This document shows, one piece after another, positions 7,426 through 27,657 of a stretch of 64,000 nt of DNA. The stretch's first letter is position 1; each line of letters starts with the position of its first letter. This DNA comes from Streptomyces chartreusis NRRL 3882. GTDB lineage: Bacteria > Actinomycetota > Actinomycetes > Streptomycetales > Streptomycetaceae. The notes under the pieces are model-generated. The model saw only the letters and a program-made list of their open reading frames with translations, was not told the origin of the DNA and searched no databases. The DNA is taken from contig NZ_LT963352.1 of NCBI RefSeq assembly GCF_900236475.1, positions 2,232,001-2,296,000 of the forward strand, read 5' to 3'. The position numbers were made by a program, and so were the translations under genes.

Positions 7426-7573
7426 GGGCGCAGCCTAGACCGCACGCTCGGTGAATCCTGTCTCAAAGCATGAACACAAATTACACACATCCTCTCTACA
7501 CACTGGGTTCCCATGGTCTAGATTGACCGTGCTTCAGCTGTTCGAACACGAGGCGACCAGTAAGGATCTATAG

Positions 7574-7790
7574 GTCCGGCGCTACGAAAAACCAGCAGTC
7601 GCGTTCCCCCGCGCCGGACGTGGGGTTGATCAATTCCTGGAGCCCGGAAGGGGGGCAGGACATGCGAGTCCGCTGCCTCCAGGGTGGGTTGTTCACGCAG
7701 CGCTGAAGCAACCGGGAAGTCATGCGGGGGGCGGGGGCCTCCCGAGGGGAGGAACAGCACGGCGCGGGAGGCGGGGGCGCCTCCCGGCGC
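7574..7790 (+). promoter_or_regulatory. Structured 5' leader of the exopolysaccharide operon (possible attenuator or riboswitch-like RNA)
   Basis: Several consecutive inverted repeats lie between the probable promoter area and the first gene. A perfect 9-bp stem joins GTCCGGCGC (7574-7582) to GCGCCGGAC (7611-7619) around a 28-nt loop. CCTGGAG (7636-7642) pairs with CTCCAGG (7677-7683) and encloses a smaller hairpin. GGTTG (7687-7691) pairs with CAACC (7709-7713). CCTCCC/GGGAGG (7738-7752) has a 3-nt loop. GGGAGGCG (7766-7773) pairs with CGCCTCCC (7778-7785) around GGGG. The last two hairpins share arm sequences and could swap partners. I do not recognise a known riboswitch class. Function is inferred. 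Confidence 0.5.
7662..7706 (+). CDS. Possible 14-aa leader peptide in the exopolysaccharide leader
   Basis: A 14-codon ORF (MRVRCLQGGLFTQR, then TGA) preceded by the purine-rich GGAAGGGGGGCAGG a few bases before ATG 7662. It runs through the CTCCAGG arm (7677-7683) of one leader stem and most of the next, so ribosome position could affect folding. No run of a single amino acid stands out. Chance occurrence is quite possible in such G-rich sequence. Confidence 0.25.
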   Translation: MRVRCLQGGLFTQR

Positions 7791-7842
7791 AGTAGCAGTG
7801 TGAGGCGAACACCTCGAACCACTGGCGACCTGGGGGGGTCCT

Positions 7843-9321
7843 GTGCATCAGGGGGAATTGGTCGACCCGTTTCCGTCGGCGCGCGGGCGTCTGGCGAACG
7901 GGGCAGTCAGCCGGCCCGCGACCGACTGGGAGCAGCGGTACCGCCGTACCGTGATCATCAGCGACACCGCGGCCACCGCCTTCGTGGTGGCCGCGATCGG
8001 TAACTTCTTCGGAGCCCGGGACGCGGCCAACTGGCACGAGAAGTGGGGAATTCTCGCCTTCGGCACCGAGCTGCTGGTGCTGTGTGCGCTCGCGGTGGGC
8101 CGGGCGTGGGTTCCGGCCGTGCTCGGCCAGGGCGCCGAGGAATTCCGCCGGCTCGGACGCTCACTGTTCGCGGCGACCGTCGTACTGGCGCTCGGCGGGA
8201 TCGCCCTGACCTCGCGCAACATCAAGCTCTGGATCTTCGTCGCGATTCCCGCGATCGCGCTCGTCACCATGACCGCGCGGTATCTGCTGCGCCTCTGGCT
8301 GCACAAACAGCGCAAGGAAGGACGGTGCCTGAGACCGGTGCTCGCTGCCGGGAGCCCCGACACCGTGCGCGATCTCATCACCCGGACCCGCAAGTTCCCG
8401 CACATCGGCTGGCGGGTGGAGGCGGTGTGCACGACGGACGGCCGCGGGCTCGACGGTGACGAACTGGACGGAGTGCCGGTCGTCGGTCAACTGGAGGACG
8501 TCGCCAAGCACGTCCGCCACGACGGCTACCGCGTCGTCGCGGTCACACCGGACCCGCACTGGTCACCGGACCGGCTGCAGCGGCTGGCCTGGAACCTCGA
8601 AGGCAGCGACACCGAGATGGTCGTGGCGCCCGTGCTGATGGAGGTGGCCGGCCCGCGGCTGCACGTCGACGCGGTGCTCGGGATCCCGCTGCTGCGGGTC
8701 AGCATGCCGGCCTTCACCGGGGGCCGCCGGGTGGTCAAAGGGGTGGTCGACCGAGTAGGCGCAACGTTTCTGCTGATGTTGTTCGCGCCGCTGATGGTGC
8801 TCGTCGGGCTGCTCGTGCTGGTGGACAGCCGGGGCGGGGCGTTCTATCGCCAGCGCAGGGTCGGCAAGGACGGCCGCGAGTTCACCATTCTCAAGTTCCG
8901 CACCATGGTCGCCGGGGCTCACGGGGCCCGTGCGGAGCTGGCCGACCGCAACGAGGGCGCGGGCCCGCTGTTCAAGCTCCGCCGGGATCCGCGGGTGACC
9001 CGGGTGGGAGCGGTGCTGCGCCGGTACTCGATCGACGAGCTCCCGCAGCTTTTCAACGTGCTCACCGGATCGATGTCGCTCGTCGGTCCGCGGCCTCCGC
9101 TGCCGGAGGAGTCCGCCGCGTACGGCCCGGACATCCGGCGGCGACTGCTGGTCAAGCCCGGGCTCACCGGCCTGTGGCAGATCAGCGGACGCAGCGACCT
9201 GTCGTGGGAGGAGGCGGTCCGGCTGGACCTGCGGTACGTGGAGGACTGGTCGCTCGCCCTGGACACAGTGATCTTGTGGAAGACGCTGCGTGCGGTGCTC
9301 CACGGGCAGGGGGCCTACTGA
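7843..9321 (+). CDS. Polyprenyl glycosylphosphotransferase (WbaP/CpsE-like initiating enzyme)
   Basis: A 492-aa membrane enzyme that should start each repeat unit by moving a sugar-1-phosphate from its nucleotide carrier onto undecaprenyl phosphate. The N-terminal half has several membrane helices and a CoA-binding-like domain (around 165-250). After one more membrane helix near 305-325, the C-terminal bacterial sugar transferase domain shows KFRTM, DELPQLFNVLTGSMSLVGPRPP and PGLTGLWQ, all hallmark motifs. GTG 7843 follows a G-rich ribosome-binding site. It is the first gene of the long co-directional run. The sugar transferred (Glc, Gal or other) cannot be told from sequence. Confidence 0.9.
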   Translation: MHQGELVDPFPSARGRLANGAVSRPATDWEQRYRRTVIISDTAATAFVVAAIGNFFGARDAANWHEKWGILAFGTELLVLCALAVGRAWVPAVLGQGAEEFRRLGRSLFAATVVLALGGIALTSRNIKLWIFVAIPAIALVTMTARYLLRLWLHKQRKEGRCLRPVLAAGSPDTVRDLITRTRKFPHIGWRVEAVCTTDGRGLDGDELDGVPVVGQLEDVAKHVRHDGYRVVAVTPDPHWSPDRLQRLAWNLEGSDTEMVVAPVLMEVAGPRLHVDAVLGIPLLRVSMPAFTGGRRVVKGVVDRVGATFLLMLFAPLMVLVGLLVLVDSRGGAFYRQRRVGKDGREFTILKFRTMVAGAHGARAELADRNEGAGPLFKLRRDPRVTRVGAVLRRYSIDELPQLFNVLTGSMSLVGPRPPLPEESAAYGPDIRRRLLVKPGLTGLWQISGRSDLSWEEAVRLDLRYVEDWSLALDTVILWKTLRAVLHGQGAY

Positions 9322-9394
9322 TGCGCGGGGGTCGTCAAACGGCCGGCGCGCGGACCGCAGGCCGTAGGGGCCTGCCTGGGGGGAGGAACGGGTC

Positions 9395-10711
9395 ATGAGA
9401 GTCAGCGTTTTCGGGCTCGGCTACGTGGGCTGCGTGTCGGCCGCGTGCCTGGCCAGCATGGGGCACGAGGTCATCGGGGTGGACGTCAACCAGGTGAAGG
9501 TCGACCTGGTCAACGACGGCAAGGCCCCGGTGGTCGAGGAGCGGATCGGCGAGCTCATCGCCGAGGTCGTGCGGACCGGAGCGTTGCGCGCCACCGGCGA
9601 CGTCCGCGAAGCGATCATGGGCAGCGAGGTGTCACTGGTCTGCGTGGGCACGCCGTCGGAGCCCAACGGCAGTTTGTGCACGACGTACTTGGAACGGGTC
9701 ACGGAGCAGATCGGCGCCGCACTGGCCGAGCAGGGGGGCCGGCACACCGTCGTGTTCCGCAGCACCATGCTCCCCGGCACCTGCCTGAACCTGCTGGTGC
9801 CGATCCTGGAGAAGTACGTCGGCGGCACGGCCGGGGTGGACATCGGGGTCGCGGTCAACCCGGAGTTCCTGCGCGAGGGCACGAGCGTGCGGGACTTCTT
9901 CGACCCGCCCAAGACCGTCATCGGCGAGCTCGACCCGGCGAGCGGCGACGCGGTGGCGGCGCTGTACGAGGGCTTGCCCGGCGAGGTGTTCCGGGTGCCG
10001 GTCCCGACGGCCGAGGCGATCAAGTACGCGGACAACGCGTTCCACGGCCTCAAGATCGGCTTCGCGAACGAGCTGGGCGCGGTGTGCCAGGCGCTCGGAG
10101 TGGACTCGCACCAGGTGATGGACGTGTTCCTGGCCGACCGCAAGCTGAACATCAGCCCCGCCTACCTGCGGCCCGGCTTCGCCTTCGGCGGCTCCTGCCT
10201 GCCCAAGGACCTGCGCAGCCTCGTCCACGCGGCGCAGCGGGCCGACGTCTCGGTGCCCATCCTCGCCCATGTGCTGCCCTCCAACTCCGACCATCTGCAG
10301 CGCGCGGTGGAGCTGGTCGAGCGCACCGGCAAGCGCCGGGTGGGCCTGTTCGGGCTGTCCTTCAAGCCCGGCACCGACGACCTCCGCGAGAGCCCGCTCG
10401 TCGAGCTGGCGGAGAAGCTCTTCGGCAAGGGGTACGACCTGCGGATCCACGACGCCAACGTCAGCCTCTCCCGGCTGCTCGGCGCCAACCGCGAGTACAT
10501 CGAGACCCGGCTGCCGCACCTCGCGCAACTGCTCGCGGATTCCGTCGAGGAGGTGCTCGATCACGCCGAGGTGGTCCTGGTCGGGACCAGGGACCCGGCT
10601 GTGCTGTCGGCGCTGCCCCATGGGGACGGCCCGGTGATCGTCGACCTCATCCGCCTTCCCGACGCCGAGGCGCGCCGGACCGAACCGGGGTACGTGGGCC
10701 TTGCTTGGTGA
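9395..10711 (+). CDS. GDP-mannose 6-dehydrogenase-like nucleotide-sugar dehydrogenase (AlgD-like)
   Basis: A 438-aa UDPGDH-superfamily enzyme making an NDP-uronic acid by two-step NAD oxidation. The Rossmann motif GLGYVG is at residues 7-12. GGSCLPKD carries the catalytic Cys at position 268, the same number as in Pseudomonas AlgD. The C-terminal domain reads DLRESPLVELAEKLFGKGYD and then GANREYIE, which resembles AlgD more than UDP-glucose dehydrogenases. The predicted product is therefore GDP-mannuronate, giving an acidic polysaccharide. UDP-glucose or another substrate remains possible. Its stop overlaps the next gene. Confidence 0.85.
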   Translation: MRVSVFGLGYVGCVSAACLASMGHEVIGVDVNQVKVDLVNDGKAPVVEERIGELIAEVVRTGALRATGDVREAIMGSEVSLVCVGTPSEPNGSLCTTYLERVTEQIGAALAEQGGRHTVVFRSTMLPGTCLNLLVPILEKYVGGTAGVDIGVAVNPEFLREGTSVRDFFDPPKTVIGELDPASGDAVAALYEGLPGEVFRVPVPTAEAIKYADNAFHGLKIGFANELGAVCQALGVDSHQVMDVFLADRKLNISPAYLRPGFAFGGSCLPKDLRSLVHAAQRADVSVPILAHVLPSNSDHLQRAVELVERTGKRRVGLFGLSFKPGTDDLRESPLVELAEKLFGKGYDLRIHDANVSLSRLLGANREYIETRLPHLAQLLADSVEEVLDHAEVVLVGTRDPAVLSALPHGDGPVIVDLIRLPDAEARRTEPGYVGLAW

Positions 10712-19027: not shown

Positions 19028-20967
19028 CCATGAGCGCGGGCTGGTACCTGCGGCGGCTGTCCCGGATGGGACCGCAGGAGGTCGCGGGCCGGGTGGGGGA
19101 CGCGGTGCGCAGGCGGCGGTGGCGCTCGGCGCGGCCCGACTGCCCGAGCGTGACCGGCGCCCGGTTCACCGCCGTGCTGCCCGCCGGGACGATCGCCGCG
19201 GTGCCACCGGACGCCGCGAAGCGTCTCATCGCCGAAGCGGACCGGCTGATGGCGGGGCACGCCGAGTACTTCGGCGTGGTCCGCGACGACCTGACCGACC
19301 CGGACTGGTGGTGCGACCCGAAGACCGGGCGCCGGGCCCCGGCGGGTTACGCCTTCGACGTGCCGTACCGGAACGAGGACGCGGTCGGGGACATCAAGCA
19401 GATCTGGGAGCTGTCCCGGCACCAGTACCTCACCGTGCTCGCCGCCGCCTACGCGGTCACGGGGAACGAGCGGTACGCCGAGCGCGTGGCCGAGCACCTG
19501 CGGTCGTGGTGGGCGGCCAACCCACCGCTGCGCGGCGTGCACTGGATCAGCGGCATCGAGCTGGGCATCCGGCTGCTGTCGTGGGTGTGGATCCGCAGGC
19601 TGCTCGACGGCTGGCCGGGCGCGGCCGGGCTGTTCGAGGACAACCCGGTGGCGCTGAAGCAGATCTGGCACCACCAGCGCTGGCTGGCTGCCTTCCCCAG
19701 CAGGGGGTCCTCGGCGAACAACCACGTCATCGCCGAGGCCGCCGGGCAACTCGCGGCGGCCTGCGCGTTCGGGTGGTTCCCCTCCTCGGCGCGTTGGCGG
19801 ACCGGAGCGCTGCGGTCCCTCGAGCGGCACCTGCGCGGCAACACCTTCCTGTCCGGCCTCAACCGCGAGCTGGCCTCCGAGTACCACGGCCTCGTGCTGG
19901 AGCTCGGCCTGGCCGCGGTGGCCGAGGCGGATGCCGCGGGCGTGCCGGTCCCCCCGTCGATCCGGCTGGTGCTGCTGCGGATGACCGACGCGCTCGCGGC
20001 GATCGTGGACAGCCGGCTCCGGCCGCCGCGCCAGGGGGACGCGGACGACGGACACGGGCTGGTCGTGGACGGCGAGGGCACCGACCGCTGGGCCTCGCTG
20101 CTCAGCACCGGGGAGGCGGTGTTCGGCCGGCTCGCCTGGTGGCCGGCGGTGACCGGCACCGATGTGCGCACCCCGCTGCTGGCCGCGCTCATCAAGCCCA
20201 CTGAACCGTCCGTGTCCCGCCCGGCAAGCCGACCGGCCCACTTCGCCGACGCGGGCATGACCATCCTGCGCGGTCCGGAGGGGATCTGGTGCCGCTGCGA
20301 CGGCGGTCCGCACGGTTTCCTGTCCATCGCCGCGCATGCTCACGCGGACGCGCTGTCCGTGGAGGTCCGGCACGACGGGATCGACGTGCTCGCCGACCCG
20401 GGGACGTTCTGCTACCACGGGCAGCCGGAGTGGCGGCAGTACTTCCGCTCGACCCTCGGCCACAACACCCTGCAGCTGGACGGCGGTGACCAGTCCGTCT
20501 CCGGTGGGCCGTTCCTGTGGACGCGGCACGCCAAGAGCCGCGTCCTGGTCGCGGACACATCCGGCGAGGGGGTGGCCCGCTGGTGTGCCGAGCACGACGG
20601 TTATCAGCCCTCCGTGCACCGCCGCCGGGTGGAGCTGACGGCCGCGAGCCGGGAGCTGAGGGTGGTCGACGAGGTGCGCGGACCGCGCCGGGCCGTGCAA
20701 CTGGCGTTCCACCTGGGCCCGGCGATCACCGCGGACCTCGTGGGAAACCGGGCCGTGCTCACCTGGACCCGGGACGGCGAGGACCGCTCCGCGGTGCTCG
20801 ACCTGCCCGGGCAGCTGAACTGGCGGGCGCATCGCGGCGAGAGTGACCCGCCGCTGGGCTGGTACTCCGCCGGCTTCGGCCGCAAGGAACCCACCACCAC
20901 GCTGGTCGGCACCGGCTTCGCCGGCGGCGTGGAGGGCTTCACCACCGTACTCAGGTTCGGCGGCTAG
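19024..20967 (+). CDS. Heparinase II/III-like polysaccharide lyase family protein
   Basis: A 647-aa protein with an N-terminal alpha/alpha toroid and a C-terminal beta-sandwich (Hepar_II_III). Candidate active-site stretches are SSANNHV (about 231-237), AHAHADALSVEV (about 436-447) and YHGQPEWRQY (about 464). These supply the Asn/His/Tyr typical of lyases acting on uronic-acid glycans. No signal peptide or membrane anchor is visible, so it is probably cytoplasmic, as with homologues in capsule loci where the role is unclear. The ATG at 19024 overlaps the previous stop; a second ATG lies two codons in. The open frame extends further upstream, but that part has no homology-like content. Confidence 0.8.
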   Translation: MTMSAGWYLRRLSRMGPQEVAGRVGDAVRRRRWRSARPDCPSVTGARFTAVLPAGTIAAVPPDAAKRLIAEADRLMAGHAEYFGVVRDDLTDPDWWCDPKTGRRAPAGYAFDVPYRNEDAVGDIKQIWELSRHQYLTVLAAAYAVTGNERYAERVAEHLRSWWAANPPLRGVHWISGIELGIRLLSWVWIRRLLDGWPGAAGLFEDNPVALKQIWHHQRWLAAFPSRGSSANNHVIAEAAGQLAAACAFGWFPSSARWRTGALRSLERHLRGNTFLSGLNRELASEYHGLVLELGLAAVAEADAAGVPVPPSIRLVLLRMTDALAAIVDSRLRPPRQGDADDGHGLVVDGEGTDRWASLLSTGEAVFGRLAWWPAVTGTDVRTPLLAALIKPTEPSVSRPASRPAHFADAGMTILRGPEGIWCRCDGGPHGFLSIAAHAHADALSVEVRHDGIDVLADPGTFCYHGQPEWRQYFRSTLGHNTLQLDGGDQSVSGGPFLWTRHAKSRVLVADTSGEGVARWCAEHDGYQPSVHRRRVELTAASRELRVVDEVRGPRRAVQLAFHLGPAITADLVGNRAVLTWTRDGEDRSAVLDLPGQLNWRAHRGESDPPLGWYSAGFGRKEPTTTLVGTGFAGGVEGFTTVLRFGG

Positions 20968-20975
20968 GGGGGCGC

Positions 20976-23750: not shown

Positions 23751-24974
23751 ATGCACGTCCTCGTGGTGCACAACCGCTACGCCTCGGCGCAGCCGAGCGG
23801 GGAGAACAAGGTCGTCGACCAGGAGGTGGCGCTGCTGCGCGAGGCCGGCCACCGGGTCGAGGTGTTCGAGCGGCGCAGCGACGACATCGCCGCCCGGTCC
23901 CTGCTCGGCAAGGTCGCGGTGCCGCTCCTCGTGCCCTGGAACCCGGCGGTCCGCACGGAACTCGCCGCCCGGCTGCGCGCCGAGCGGCCGGACGTGGTGC
24001 ACGTCCACAACGTCTTCCCGCTCCTGTCGCCGGCGGTGCTCGCCGCCTGTGCCGACGCCGGTGTGCCCGCCGTCGCCACGCTGCACAACTACACCCAGGT
24101 CTGCCCGCCCGGCACGCTGCAGCGGGACGGCCGGCCGTGCACCGAGTGCGTCGGATCCACGGTGCCGGTGCCCGCCGTACGGCACGGCTGCTACCGCAAC
24201 TCCCGCCTCGCGACGGTGCCGCTCGCGGTCAGCCTGTCGGTCAACCGGCGGCGGTGGTGGTCCGGCGTGGAGCGGTTCTTCTGCATCTCCGCGGCGCAGC
24301 GCGACGTCCTGGTGCGGGCCGGCATGCCGGCCGAGCGGCTGGTCGTGAAGCACAACTTCGTGCCCGACCCGGACGACCGCCGAGCGGGCGGCGGCGAGCA
24401 TCTGCTCTGTCTCGGCCGGCTCGCGGAGGCCAAGGGCGTGCGGCTGCTCATGGCCGCGTGGGACGAGCTCGCGGCGAGCGGCGGTCTGGGCGTGCCGCTC
24501 CTGATCGCCGGCACGGGGCCGCTGGAGCCGGAGGTGACGGCCTGGGCGGCCGGCCGGGACGACGTGCGCTACGTCGGCCTGCTGGACACGGCGGAGTGCC
24601 GGAAGGCCATCGCACGGTCGGTCGCCGTGGTGGCCCCCTCGACGTGGCTGGAGGCGTTCGGCCTGGTGGTCGTGGAGGCGATGGCGGCGGGGGTCCCGGT
24701 CGTCGCCGCCGGCCACGGCGCCTTCGTCGAACTCGTCGAGGACGGGGTCACCGGGCTGCTGCACCGGCCGGGCGAGTCCGCCTCGCTCGCGTCCTGCATA
24801 CGCCGGATCGCGGCCGAGCCGGACGCCAACCGGGAGATGGGCCAGGCGGCCCGGCGCCGTTACGAACAGGGTTTCAGCCCGGCGGTCGGCCTCGACCGCC
24901 TGGTTGACGAGTACCGCACCGCGATCGCGGGTCGGTCGGAAGCAACGGGGGACCGAATCAATGGGGGGCAGTAA
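23751..24974 (+). CDS. Glycosyltransferase family 4
   Basis: A 407-aa GT-B enzyme. The N-terminal donor/acceptor fold begins MHVLVVHNRY, then QPSGENKVVDQE. A Cys-containing stretch (QVCPPG, CTECVG) is typical of this subgroup. The C-terminal Glycos_transf_1 domain has LGRLAEAKG and the EX7E motif EAFGLVVVE near residue 300. It presumably adds a repeat-unit sugar. The same frame is open far upstream, but ATG 23751 begins at the conserved N-terminus, 2 bp after the polymerase stop. It ends directly against the methyltransferase start. Confidence 0.85.
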   Translation: MHVLVVHNRYASAQPSGENKVVDQEVALLREAGHRVEVFERRSDDIAARSLLGKVAVPLLVPWNPAVRTELAARLRAERPDVVHVHNVFPLLSPAVLAACADAGVPAVATLHNYTQVCPPGTLQRDGRPCTECVGSTVPVPAVRHGCYRNSRLATVPLAVSLSVNRRRWWSGVERFFCISAAQRDVLVRAGMPAERLVVKHNFVPDPDDRRAGGGEHLLCLGRLAEAKGVRLLMAAWDELAASGGLGVPLLIAGTGPLEPEVTAWAAGRDDVRYVGLLDTAECRKAIARSVAVVAPSTWLEAFGLVVVEAMAAGVPVVAAGHGAFVELVEDGVTGLLHRPGESASLASCIRRIAAEPDANREMGQAARRRYEQGFSPAVGLDRLVDEYRTAIAGRSEATGDRINGGQ

Positions 24975-27010: not shown

Positions 27011-27657
27011 TCCGGCTCGGAGCCGGGCGACGCCCGGAGCGGATCGTCGCGGTGGGCGCGCACTGCGACGACATCGCCATCGGCGCCGGCGGCACACTGC
27101 TGACGCTGTGCCACGCCCGCCCGGGCCTCCGTGTCGACGCGCTGGTGCTCTCCGGCGGCGGCACCGATCGGGAGCAGGAGGAGCGGGCCGCGCTCGCCGC
27201 CTTCTGCCCGGGCGCCGACCTGCGGCTGACCGTGCTCAAGCTGCCGGACGGCCGGATGCCCGTGCACTGGGACGAGGCCAAGGCCGCGGTCGAGGAGCTG
27301 CGCGCGCAGAGCGACCCGGATCTGATCCTGGCCCCGCGCACCGACGACGCCCACCAGGACCACCGCGGCCTGGCACAGCTGATACCCACCGCGTTCCGCG
27401 ACCACCTCGTGCTCGGCTACGAGATCGTCAAGTGGGACGGCGATCTCGGCCGTCCGGCGGTGTACCAGCCGCTGTCGACGGAGATCGCCGAAGAGAAGGT
27501 GCGGCTGCTGCAGGAGCACTACCCCTCGCAGCGGCACCGGCCCTGGTACGACCGCGAAGCCTTCCTCGGGCTGGCACGGATCCGGGGCATCGAATGCCAC
27601 GAGCGATACGCCGAAGCGTTCGCCGTCACCAAACTCACGCTCAACCTGGGGGGTTGA
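27007..27657 (+). CDS. PIG-L/LmbE family deacetylase
   Basis: A 216-aa zinc hydrolase. The metal motif appears as GAHCDDIAIGAGG (Cys where most members have Pro: AHPDD) and DAHQDHRGL. Relatives remove N-acetyl groups from sugars (GlcNAc-PI, GlcNAc-inositol) or from natural products. Within this operon it may expose an amino group on the activated sugar. GTG 27007 overlaps the previous stop. Three bases separate its stop from the next ATG. Confidence 0.82.
   Translation: MIRLGAGRRPERIVAVGAHCDDIAIGAGGTLLTLCHARPGLRVDALVLSGGGTDREQEERAALAAFCPGADLRLTVLKLPDGRMPVHWDEAKAAVEELRAQSDPDLILAPRTDDAHQDHRGLAQLIPTAFRDHLVLGYEIVKWDGDLGRPAVYQPLSTEIAEEKVRLLQEHYPSQRHRPWYDREAFLGLARIRGIECHERYAEAFAVTKLTLNLGG

Follow-up and report, generated by a model that had tools for sequence, protein, structure and literature searches.

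The closest described parallels to the locus analyzed here come from small RNAs that reach their mRNA targets through C-rich loops, and above all from the 6C family of actinomycete RNAs, which is entered as 'Cis-reg' in Rfam and treated as a small RNA in papers. In Mycobacterium abscessus, the RNA B11 represses eccB4 through either of its C loops, and the 5' UTR of this target carries a 6-G tract (PMC10470900); in M. marinum, B11 represses lipooligosaccharide genes via G tracks beside their ribosome-binding sites (PMC12395582). The 6C RNA is reported to rise during sporulation of Streptomyces coelicolor (PMC8388888), mutation of the 6C gene of that species was without effect according to a personal communication (PMC8539372), and Streptomyces has other C-loop small RNAs too (PMC3765725). 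According to the 2013 comparative RNA-seq paper that names the latter, it 'remains to be seen' whether mRNAs are targeted by C-rich loops in bacteria as GC-rich as these (PMC3765725). Within the accessible text of the literature found, no Streptomyces target of 6C is reported; nor are the 6C RNA and a Streptomyces polysaccharide operon joined in titles or abstract openings among the matches listed, which is weak evidence of absence. Here, we examine a conserved leader in front of such an operon in a 64-kb stretch of Streptomyces DNA (the window, 64,000 nucleotides), which belongs to a genome of 8.98 Mb in a single contig, and suggest that it could be a many-sited target of an RNA of this type.

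With its predicted transcription start, the leader would occupy positions 7530-7842 of the + strand (~313 nt in this copy), and it precedes a run of + strand genes that extends to about 35351 and which, from strand and spacing, we infer to be one operon of ~27 kb. The first of these genes (7843-9321, +) encodes a polyprenyl glycosylphosphotransferase (PF02397). It had initially been labelled 'wbaP-like', a description that is good only in its general sense: the general exopolysaccharide transferase model TIGR03025 passes its cut-off and the WbaP-specific TIGR03022 does not. The genes behind it specify a nucleotide-sugar dehydrogenase, glycosyltransferases, Wzz-like proteins, an amidotransferase, a heparinase-like protein and a beta-helix protein, followed in our inventory by a methyltransferase, a PIG-L protein, an epimerase, a pyruvyltransferase and an aminotransferase.

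Taken by itself, the sequence of the window copy shows inverted repeats and fold stability that are no more than chance would give. A single-sequence scan finds 41 pairs of inverted repeats of 6 nt or more across 451 bases, the fold of 7574-7790 has a z of -0.00 (100/200 dinucleotide shuffles are equal or better), and that of 7530-7860 a z of -1.09 (16/100 shuffles equal or better). The signal beyond chance is comparative, since it lies in a conserved block with a sharp border and in pair-preserving substitutions. When 149 relatives are aligned to the window and identity is averaged over bins of 20 bases, the values are 0.18-0.46 as far as 7459 and 0.60-0.92 from there to the start codon, so that the upstream border falls sharply near 7455. 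The conserved block of ~390 bp, about 7455-7842, thus comprises a promoter-like element plus the leader and reaches the start codon at 7843. The sequence-only reading had confined the element to 7574-7790; its repeats do lie there, and these limits are too narrow for a conserved unit that runs from about 7455 to 7843. Among 150 relatives, the shortest leaders measure roughly 200 nt and the longest roughly 490, and no two of the 150 sequences are the same.

The block has a restricted distribution. Its own genome contains a single copy by DNA, covariance-model and motif searches, the only further signal being a weak second match to the R2 model (E = 0.27). A DNA search of 392 Streptomyces genomes gave leader matches in 172 at E <= 0.001, though in ~25 of these (counted by eye) no match is better than 1e-6, and chance may account for them. 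When 293 genomes of the order were searched with a covariance model built on the 5' half of the leader (R1), 101 matched at E <= 0.01. Of these, 99 belong to the same genus; a further one represents a different genus within the family (E = 2.4e-7), and the last, a weak match, a different family (E = 0.003). R1 matched twice in each of two genomes, one of these pairs being split over contigs and the other including a weak match. Because the relatives found by DNA and R1 searches were chosen by leader similarity, the unbiased sample is that of loci picked by the protein of the first gene, for which the best 80 of 470 were taken (by their titles 78 Streptomyces, 1 Streptantibioticus and 1 named only 'Actinobacteria bacterium') and 13 with under 300 nt upstream were set aside. 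In the 67 remaining loci, the promoter motif is present at 4 or fewer errors in 65, a threshold to be read against 76 control pieces that never fell under 6; the 3' end of stem P6 is present at 5 or fewer errors in 67/67, and a run of at least six G precedes the start codon in 66/67. Streptomycetes with both operon and leader include S. viridochromogenes DSM 40736 and S. coeruleorubidus ATCC 13740. Comparison of 40 genomes gave the reciprocal result, as an orthologue of the first gene at 86% or more was found in all eight leader-positive genomes and a match above 60% identity in none of the 32 leader-negative ones (14 of the 32 had no match at threshold, and two, G328 and G361, have weak DNA matches to the leader). 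The leader block goes with one operon. There is one exception, genome G168, in which a decayed leader (L282, 138-400) is followed by unrelated sequence and no operon gene could be aligned in 20 kb. We also noted that 13 of the 80 protein-picked contigs stop 28-128 nt before the first gene, at the G/C hairpin array, which probably breaks short-read assemblies.

The upstream part of the block (7473-7528, +) is promoter-like by its conservation profile across the 149 relatives, and it is unique in its own genome even when up to 3 mismatches are allowed. The segment AACACAAATTACACACATCC (7473-7492), upstream of the promoter, has a bin identity of 0.75-0.86 beside an otherwise unconserved region and is a possible activator site. 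The inverted repeat GGTC-TAGATT-GACC (7515-7528), exact in 110/150 leaders, surrounds the -10-like hexamer TAGATT (7519-7524) and looks like an operator. A sigma-70 promoter scan found nothing at this region; the position of the hexamer would place the transcription start at about 7530-7532. The sequence TGGTCTAGA may resemble the DasR site.

The leader itself is a series of hairpin modules, several of which are deleted or repeated among relatives. P1 (7574-7582/7611-7619, +), whose 9-bp stem is perfect and closes a loop of 28 nt, is present just as had been described from the window alone; it is absent from some relatives, and of the 135 single-side changes counted in it 56 leave the bases able to pair, where a share of 0.30 is expected (p = 0.0024). 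The window copy is atypical in that the P2 hairpin is deleted, which leaves a remnant (7640-7655, +) that includes a G6 run at 7650-7655; the relatives carry the hairpin CCTTGGGTGC-GGGGA-GCACCCGAGG, whose inner part is found with 5 or fewer substitutions of 23 in 124/150 leaders, 116 of which have GGGGA as the loop (a looser count of 138 leaders includes chance P5 matches, that of the window among them). In P2, 95/153 changes preserve pairing in the inner part vs 0.38 expected (p = 8e-10) and 52/112 in the outer (p = 0.016). P3 (7654-7677, +) reads GGCAG-GAC-[ATGCGA]-GTC-CG-CTGCC; its outer part shows an excess (36/75 vs 0.32 expected, p = 0.0028) and its inner part none (11/36). P4 (GGTTG-TTCA/TGAA-G-CAACC, 7687-7713, +) keeps its pairs in 86.9% of cells, with neither an excess of pair-preserving changes nor a G-U bias.

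The P5 module is a tandem unit found in zero to five copies among the 150 leaders by two pattern counts, and the number of units differs between species. Unit 1 of the window (7726-7757, +) consists of the hairpin GGGGGGC-GGGG-GCCTCCC (7726-7743) and the tail GGGGAGGAACAG (7746-7757), and unit 2 (7765-7786, +) is CGGGAGGCG-GGGG-CGCCTCCCG. The G/C hairpins with interchangeable arms that had been noticed in this segment are real, as 7765-7773 pairs with 7778-7786 and 7737-7744 is complementary to 7765-7772 at 8/8 positions. Pairing is preserved in 49/77 changes in P5 vs 0.37 expected (p = 3e-6). P6 (CAGTG...CACTG, 7796-7824, +) is conserved in sequence, and its pairing gets no support from substitutions; in the window another possible partner for its CAC is the GTG at which gene 1 starts (7796-7845), a start codon used in 99/102 leaders as extracted. 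P7 and two 5' helices have no excess of pair-preserving changes.

Over all stems, when substitutions are counted as events along the tree, pairing survives 456 of 981 single-side changes (0.465), where a share of 0.359 is expected; these event counts, and those of G-U changes below, come from one parsimony reconstruction on one tree, and slid controls also exceed the expected share in 5/6 cases, by up to 0.08. Three versions of the structure were scored. In A1, A2 and A3, respectively, 87.3%, 88.9% and 93.5% of cells are paired vs 28-47%, 20-50% and 39-53% when slid, and their covariation scores are reached by 1/500, 2/500 and 29/500 shuffles; the score of the structure with the alternative P7 is reached by 146/500. 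No stem pair reached significance when all pairs in 66 sequences were tested with the tree taken into account, nor, in 102 sequences, did any of the 64 proposed pairs, of which 2 have p < 0.05 vs 3.2 expected; in these same 102 sequences the proposed pairs together score above both slid partners (p = 0.003) and the null (p = 3e-6). When events were placed on random branches, no helix had a still-pairing share clearly above the null (best tail 36/200) and P6 was below it, a result that does not favor the stems and to which we give little weight because the null held more changed cells (1846 vs 1183). The first alifold runs returned few pairs (10, 4 and 13). Covariation in the homologous leaders, on which the sequence-only reading had staked its multi-stem RNA, is modest: it is not absent, and neither is it strong, with no single pair significant. 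The direction of G-U changes gives information on the strand. Changes from Watson-Crick to G-U outnumber those to A-C by 296:174 overall, by 61:20 in P2 inner and by 29:7 in P5, and they run in the opposite direction in the first part of P4 (18:27) and in P6 inner (3:12). The overall figure is weak and is carried by single helices, since slid controls range from 0.49 to 0.63 vs 0.63 for the stems. The sense-strand bias of P2 and P5, together with the pair-preserving substitutions, suggests that the leader block probably acts as RNA of the operon strand. That it is a conserved leader RNA we regard as highly probable.

Runs of at least six G occur at 7.77/kb in the 150 leaders vs 0.142/kb (both strands) in the remainder of the window, an excess of ~55-fold. 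The leaders are 41% G, and their dinucleotide shuffles still hold 233 such runs vs 419 in the real sequences, so that composition explains part of the excess. The motif GGGGAGGAAC, by comparison, occurs 117 times in the leaders vs 0.4 in shuffled leaders; GGGGAGGA is absent from 48/150. Runs of at least seven G are rarer than in the shuffles (48 vs 114), exactly six being favored.

These tracts recur at ribosome-binding sites. That of the first gene is G7 in the window (7832-7838, +), and 148/150 leaders have at least six G at -16 to -1. Within the operon, the site of the second gene, the nucleotide-sugar dehydrogenase (start 9395), is GGGGGGAGGAAC (9378-9389, +), and GGGGGG forms the sites of gene 9, the beta-helix gene (20967-20972, +; start 20976), gene 12, the methyltransferase gene (24963-24968, +; start 24975), and gene 14, the epimerase gene (27648-27653, +; start 27661). 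With genes called by a simple ORF rule, G6 sites are found at 5 of the 17 called operon genes, the other 12 being without them, vs 1 of the 224 genes sampled in 20 segments of this genome and 0 of 24 other genes of the window (Fisher p = 3.4e-6; 4.4e-5 without the first gene). The contrast shrinks as shorter tracts are admitted, to 5/17 vs 11/248 background genes for at least five G (p = 0.0017) and 7/17 vs 51/248 for at least four (p = 0.052). In 20 relatives, 19 of them with an alignable first gene, a run of at least six G is kept at gene 1 in 19/19, at genes 2 and 12 in 16/19 each, at gene 9 in 8/16 and at gene 14 in 4/19; for at least five G, as read from the rows, the figures are 19/19 at each of genes 1, 2, 12 and 14 and 9/16 at gene 9. 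The G6 of gene 12 stands at different distances from the start in two sequence types. No run of at least six G was found in the relatives at gene 5 (0/9), 6, 7, 16, 17 and 18 (0/19 each), 10 (0/10) or 20 (0/14), the starts of genes 18 and 20 often being unsure, and several operon genes without such runs keep GGAGG-type sites.

In its longest form the P5 tail reads GGGGGGAGGAAC, which is also the sequence of the gene 2 ribosome-binding site. This sequence has two exact copies in its own genome, one of them at gene 2; the other (L309, 6213816-6213827, - strand) lies 8 nt before the ATG of a 427-codon frame, which is possibly another 6C target. Among 38 further genomes, it is present in 16/19 leader-positive and 9/19 leader-negative ones. 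About 14 of its 34 copies in the 19 leader-positive genomes lie within the operon, by position, and none of eight sites in six leader-negative genomes, which are a part of the sites there, stands at ordinary spacing before a long frame.

A candidate partner for these tracts is encoded in the same genome, in which a 6C RNA match scores 45.9 bits (E = 2.7e-4), slightly under the gathering score of 47, and displays the C-rich loops UCCUCCCCCCCC and CUCUCCCCCCC. Such matches at E <= 0.001 exist in 18/20 tested relatives, over the gathering score in nine of the 20, and are lacking in the other two. A perfect complement of at least 8 nt to loop 1 of 6C is found in 111/150 leaders vs 113/3000 overlapping control windows, and in the window's leader the longest one (8 nt) is held by the unit 1 tail GGGGAGGAACAG. 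The accessibility-corrected best energy averages -14.85 in 80 of the 150 leaders vs -3.36 kcal/mol in 80 control windows. The controls for both comparisons were drawn from one 64-kb window and their G content is unmatched to that of the leaders.

We propose that the leader offers several binding sites to a C-loop small RNA of the 6C type, which thereby controls translation of the operon, and we would put the chances that this is correct at about even. The proposal builds on the conservation, operon linkage, part of the structure, G-tract enrichment, 6C match and complementarity that are observed here; for binding of 6C to the leader, repression as its direction and the timing of the effect, we infer from these. 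Under this scheme, 7530-7842 would be transcribed as the structured 5' leader of the ~27-kb polysaccharide operon and would give a C-loop small RNA many places to land, the 6C RNA being the likeliest candidate. Its G tracts (the P2 loop GGGGA where present, the P5 loops GGGG, the P5 tails GGGG(GG)AGGA and the G6-G7 site of gene 1) would pair with the loops UCCUCCCCCCCC and CUCUCCCCCCC, as would the G-tract sites of the inner genes that start at 9395, 20976, 24975 and 27661. When 6C RNA is abundant, ribosome entry would be blocked and the mRNA probably destabilized. An extension that we consider rather unlikely is that the operon mRNA is both target and sponge of 6C: the tandem P5 units would soak up C-loop small RNA first, their copy number would set the threshold at which the operon is silenced, and operon transcription would feed back on other 6C targets.

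Several other explanations deserve consideration. The G6 tracts could be just an unusual style of ribosome-binding site, with leader hairpins that only protect or pace the mRNA and no small RNA involved. The tails GGGGAGGAAC do resemble a strong Shine-Dalgarno sequence, and the leader is G-rich as a whole. G6 pairs with the anti-Shine-Dalgarno CCUCC less well than GGAGG does (one G-U); nonetheless, this weaker-pairing form is kept at several genes while their neighbors keep GGAGG-type sites, only 1/224 background genes has it, and the longer match of the tracts is to the C7-C8 loops, all of which makes us think this explanation improbable, if the most serious of those considered in this section. 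The sequence-only reading had instead favored a new regulatory RNA with alternative folds, and a metabolite- or protein-binding leader that senses a polysaccharide precursor or a nucleotide signal would indeed be in keeping with a long, conserved, operon-specific leader with several hairpins. For 26/149 leaders, the predicted pairing between the ribosome-binding site and the last P5 arm exceeds 0.5 (the figure for the window is 0.0015). However, the mean predicted accessibility of the site equals that of shuffles (0.356 unpaired in 149 leaders vs 0.363 with a shuffled upstream part), for which reason fold-driven masking of the site was rejected; P4, P6 and P7 lack substitution support, and the deletion and repetition of hairpin modules among relatives are unlike a compact aptamer. 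Known families gave no agreement: none of 4227 Rfam families matches at gathering score, which eliminated them; Rfam 15 gave 0 matches at that score in the whole 64-kb window and a local search of the leader gave two chance-level ones only (E 3.1 and 8.1). Of the original claim there stand a conserved leader of a polysaccharide operon, support for part of its stems and an implied operon-strand RNA; the alternative folds as a switch are not supported, and the Rfam, masking and substitution tests found no sign of a riboswitch, which we judge to be an unlikely reading.

A leader that brings about processive antitermination, in the manner of the Bacillus EAR or of those that work with LoaP/RfaH, might also let RNA polymerase cross a ~27-kb operon, and long polysaccharide operons led by an RNA are known, epsC and JUMPstart being described as such in PMC2864571. 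The genome, however, has one NusG match, hence no LoaP/RfaH-type paralogue, and antitermination of that type was rejected on this ground; the leader also has no Rfam match, antitermination would leave the inner-gene G6 sites unexplained, and we think it most improbable. Still less credence is due to a G-quadruplex, formed by the tracts among themselves, as a block or control of translation: the P5 units do bring several G tracts close together, but the CCTCCC segments between them compete, the sites of most inner genes hold just one G6, and runs of at least seven G are depleted relative to shuffles. Finally, the block could be an untranscribed operator region that acts as DNA, as the conserved inverted repeat around the -10-like hexamer might suggest given that the start near 7530 is deduced from sequence; the sense-strand G-U bias of P2 and P5 and the pair-preserving changes imply RNA, however, and the conserved block reaches the start codon, so that we accord this possibility almost no credit. 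Two further candidates were discarded. A leader-peptide attenuator was rejected on finding that, across 102 leaders, the GGAACAGTG site is not in a constant frame with gene 1 and in some, the window included, runs into a stop at once. An ANTAR-target RNA, described as two neighboring stem-loops whose hexaloops have A1 and G4 (PMC8164766), was rejected since dual ANNGNN hexaloops occur in 1/150 leaders.

If the small-RNA proposal is correct, the operon would be a many-sited and easily scored target of 6C, a surface or matrix polysaccharide would be linked to a small RNA whose level is said to increase during sporulation, and repeated hairpins would be seen to evolve as tunable small-RNA sites.

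How does this locus compare with the systems described previously? It is like the EAR element, or epsC motif, of the Bacillus eps operon in being a conserved RNA tied to exopolysaccharide genes, and unlike it in having no Rfam match and in its G-tract pattern. With the actinobacterial ANTAR-target RNAs it shares actinobacterial hairpins near ribosome-binding sites, but not, in all but a single leader, their paired hexaloops. The RNAIII-type C-loop small RNAs of Staphylococcus aureus (named in PMC3765725) also target mRNAs through C-rich loops and belong to a different RNA family and phylum. The mycobacterial 6C/B11 targets differ from the Streptomyces leader, which is long, carries tandem G-loop hairpins with G-rich tails, belongs to another genus and is known here by its sequence. 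Nonetheless, the M. marinum lipooligosaccharide locus and M. abscessus eccB4 resemble it both in their G tracts near ribosome-binding sites and in that their genomes also encode a 6C-family RNA whose C-rich loops match these tracts, and, as with M. marinum B11, the sites belong to several genes of one surface-glycan locus.
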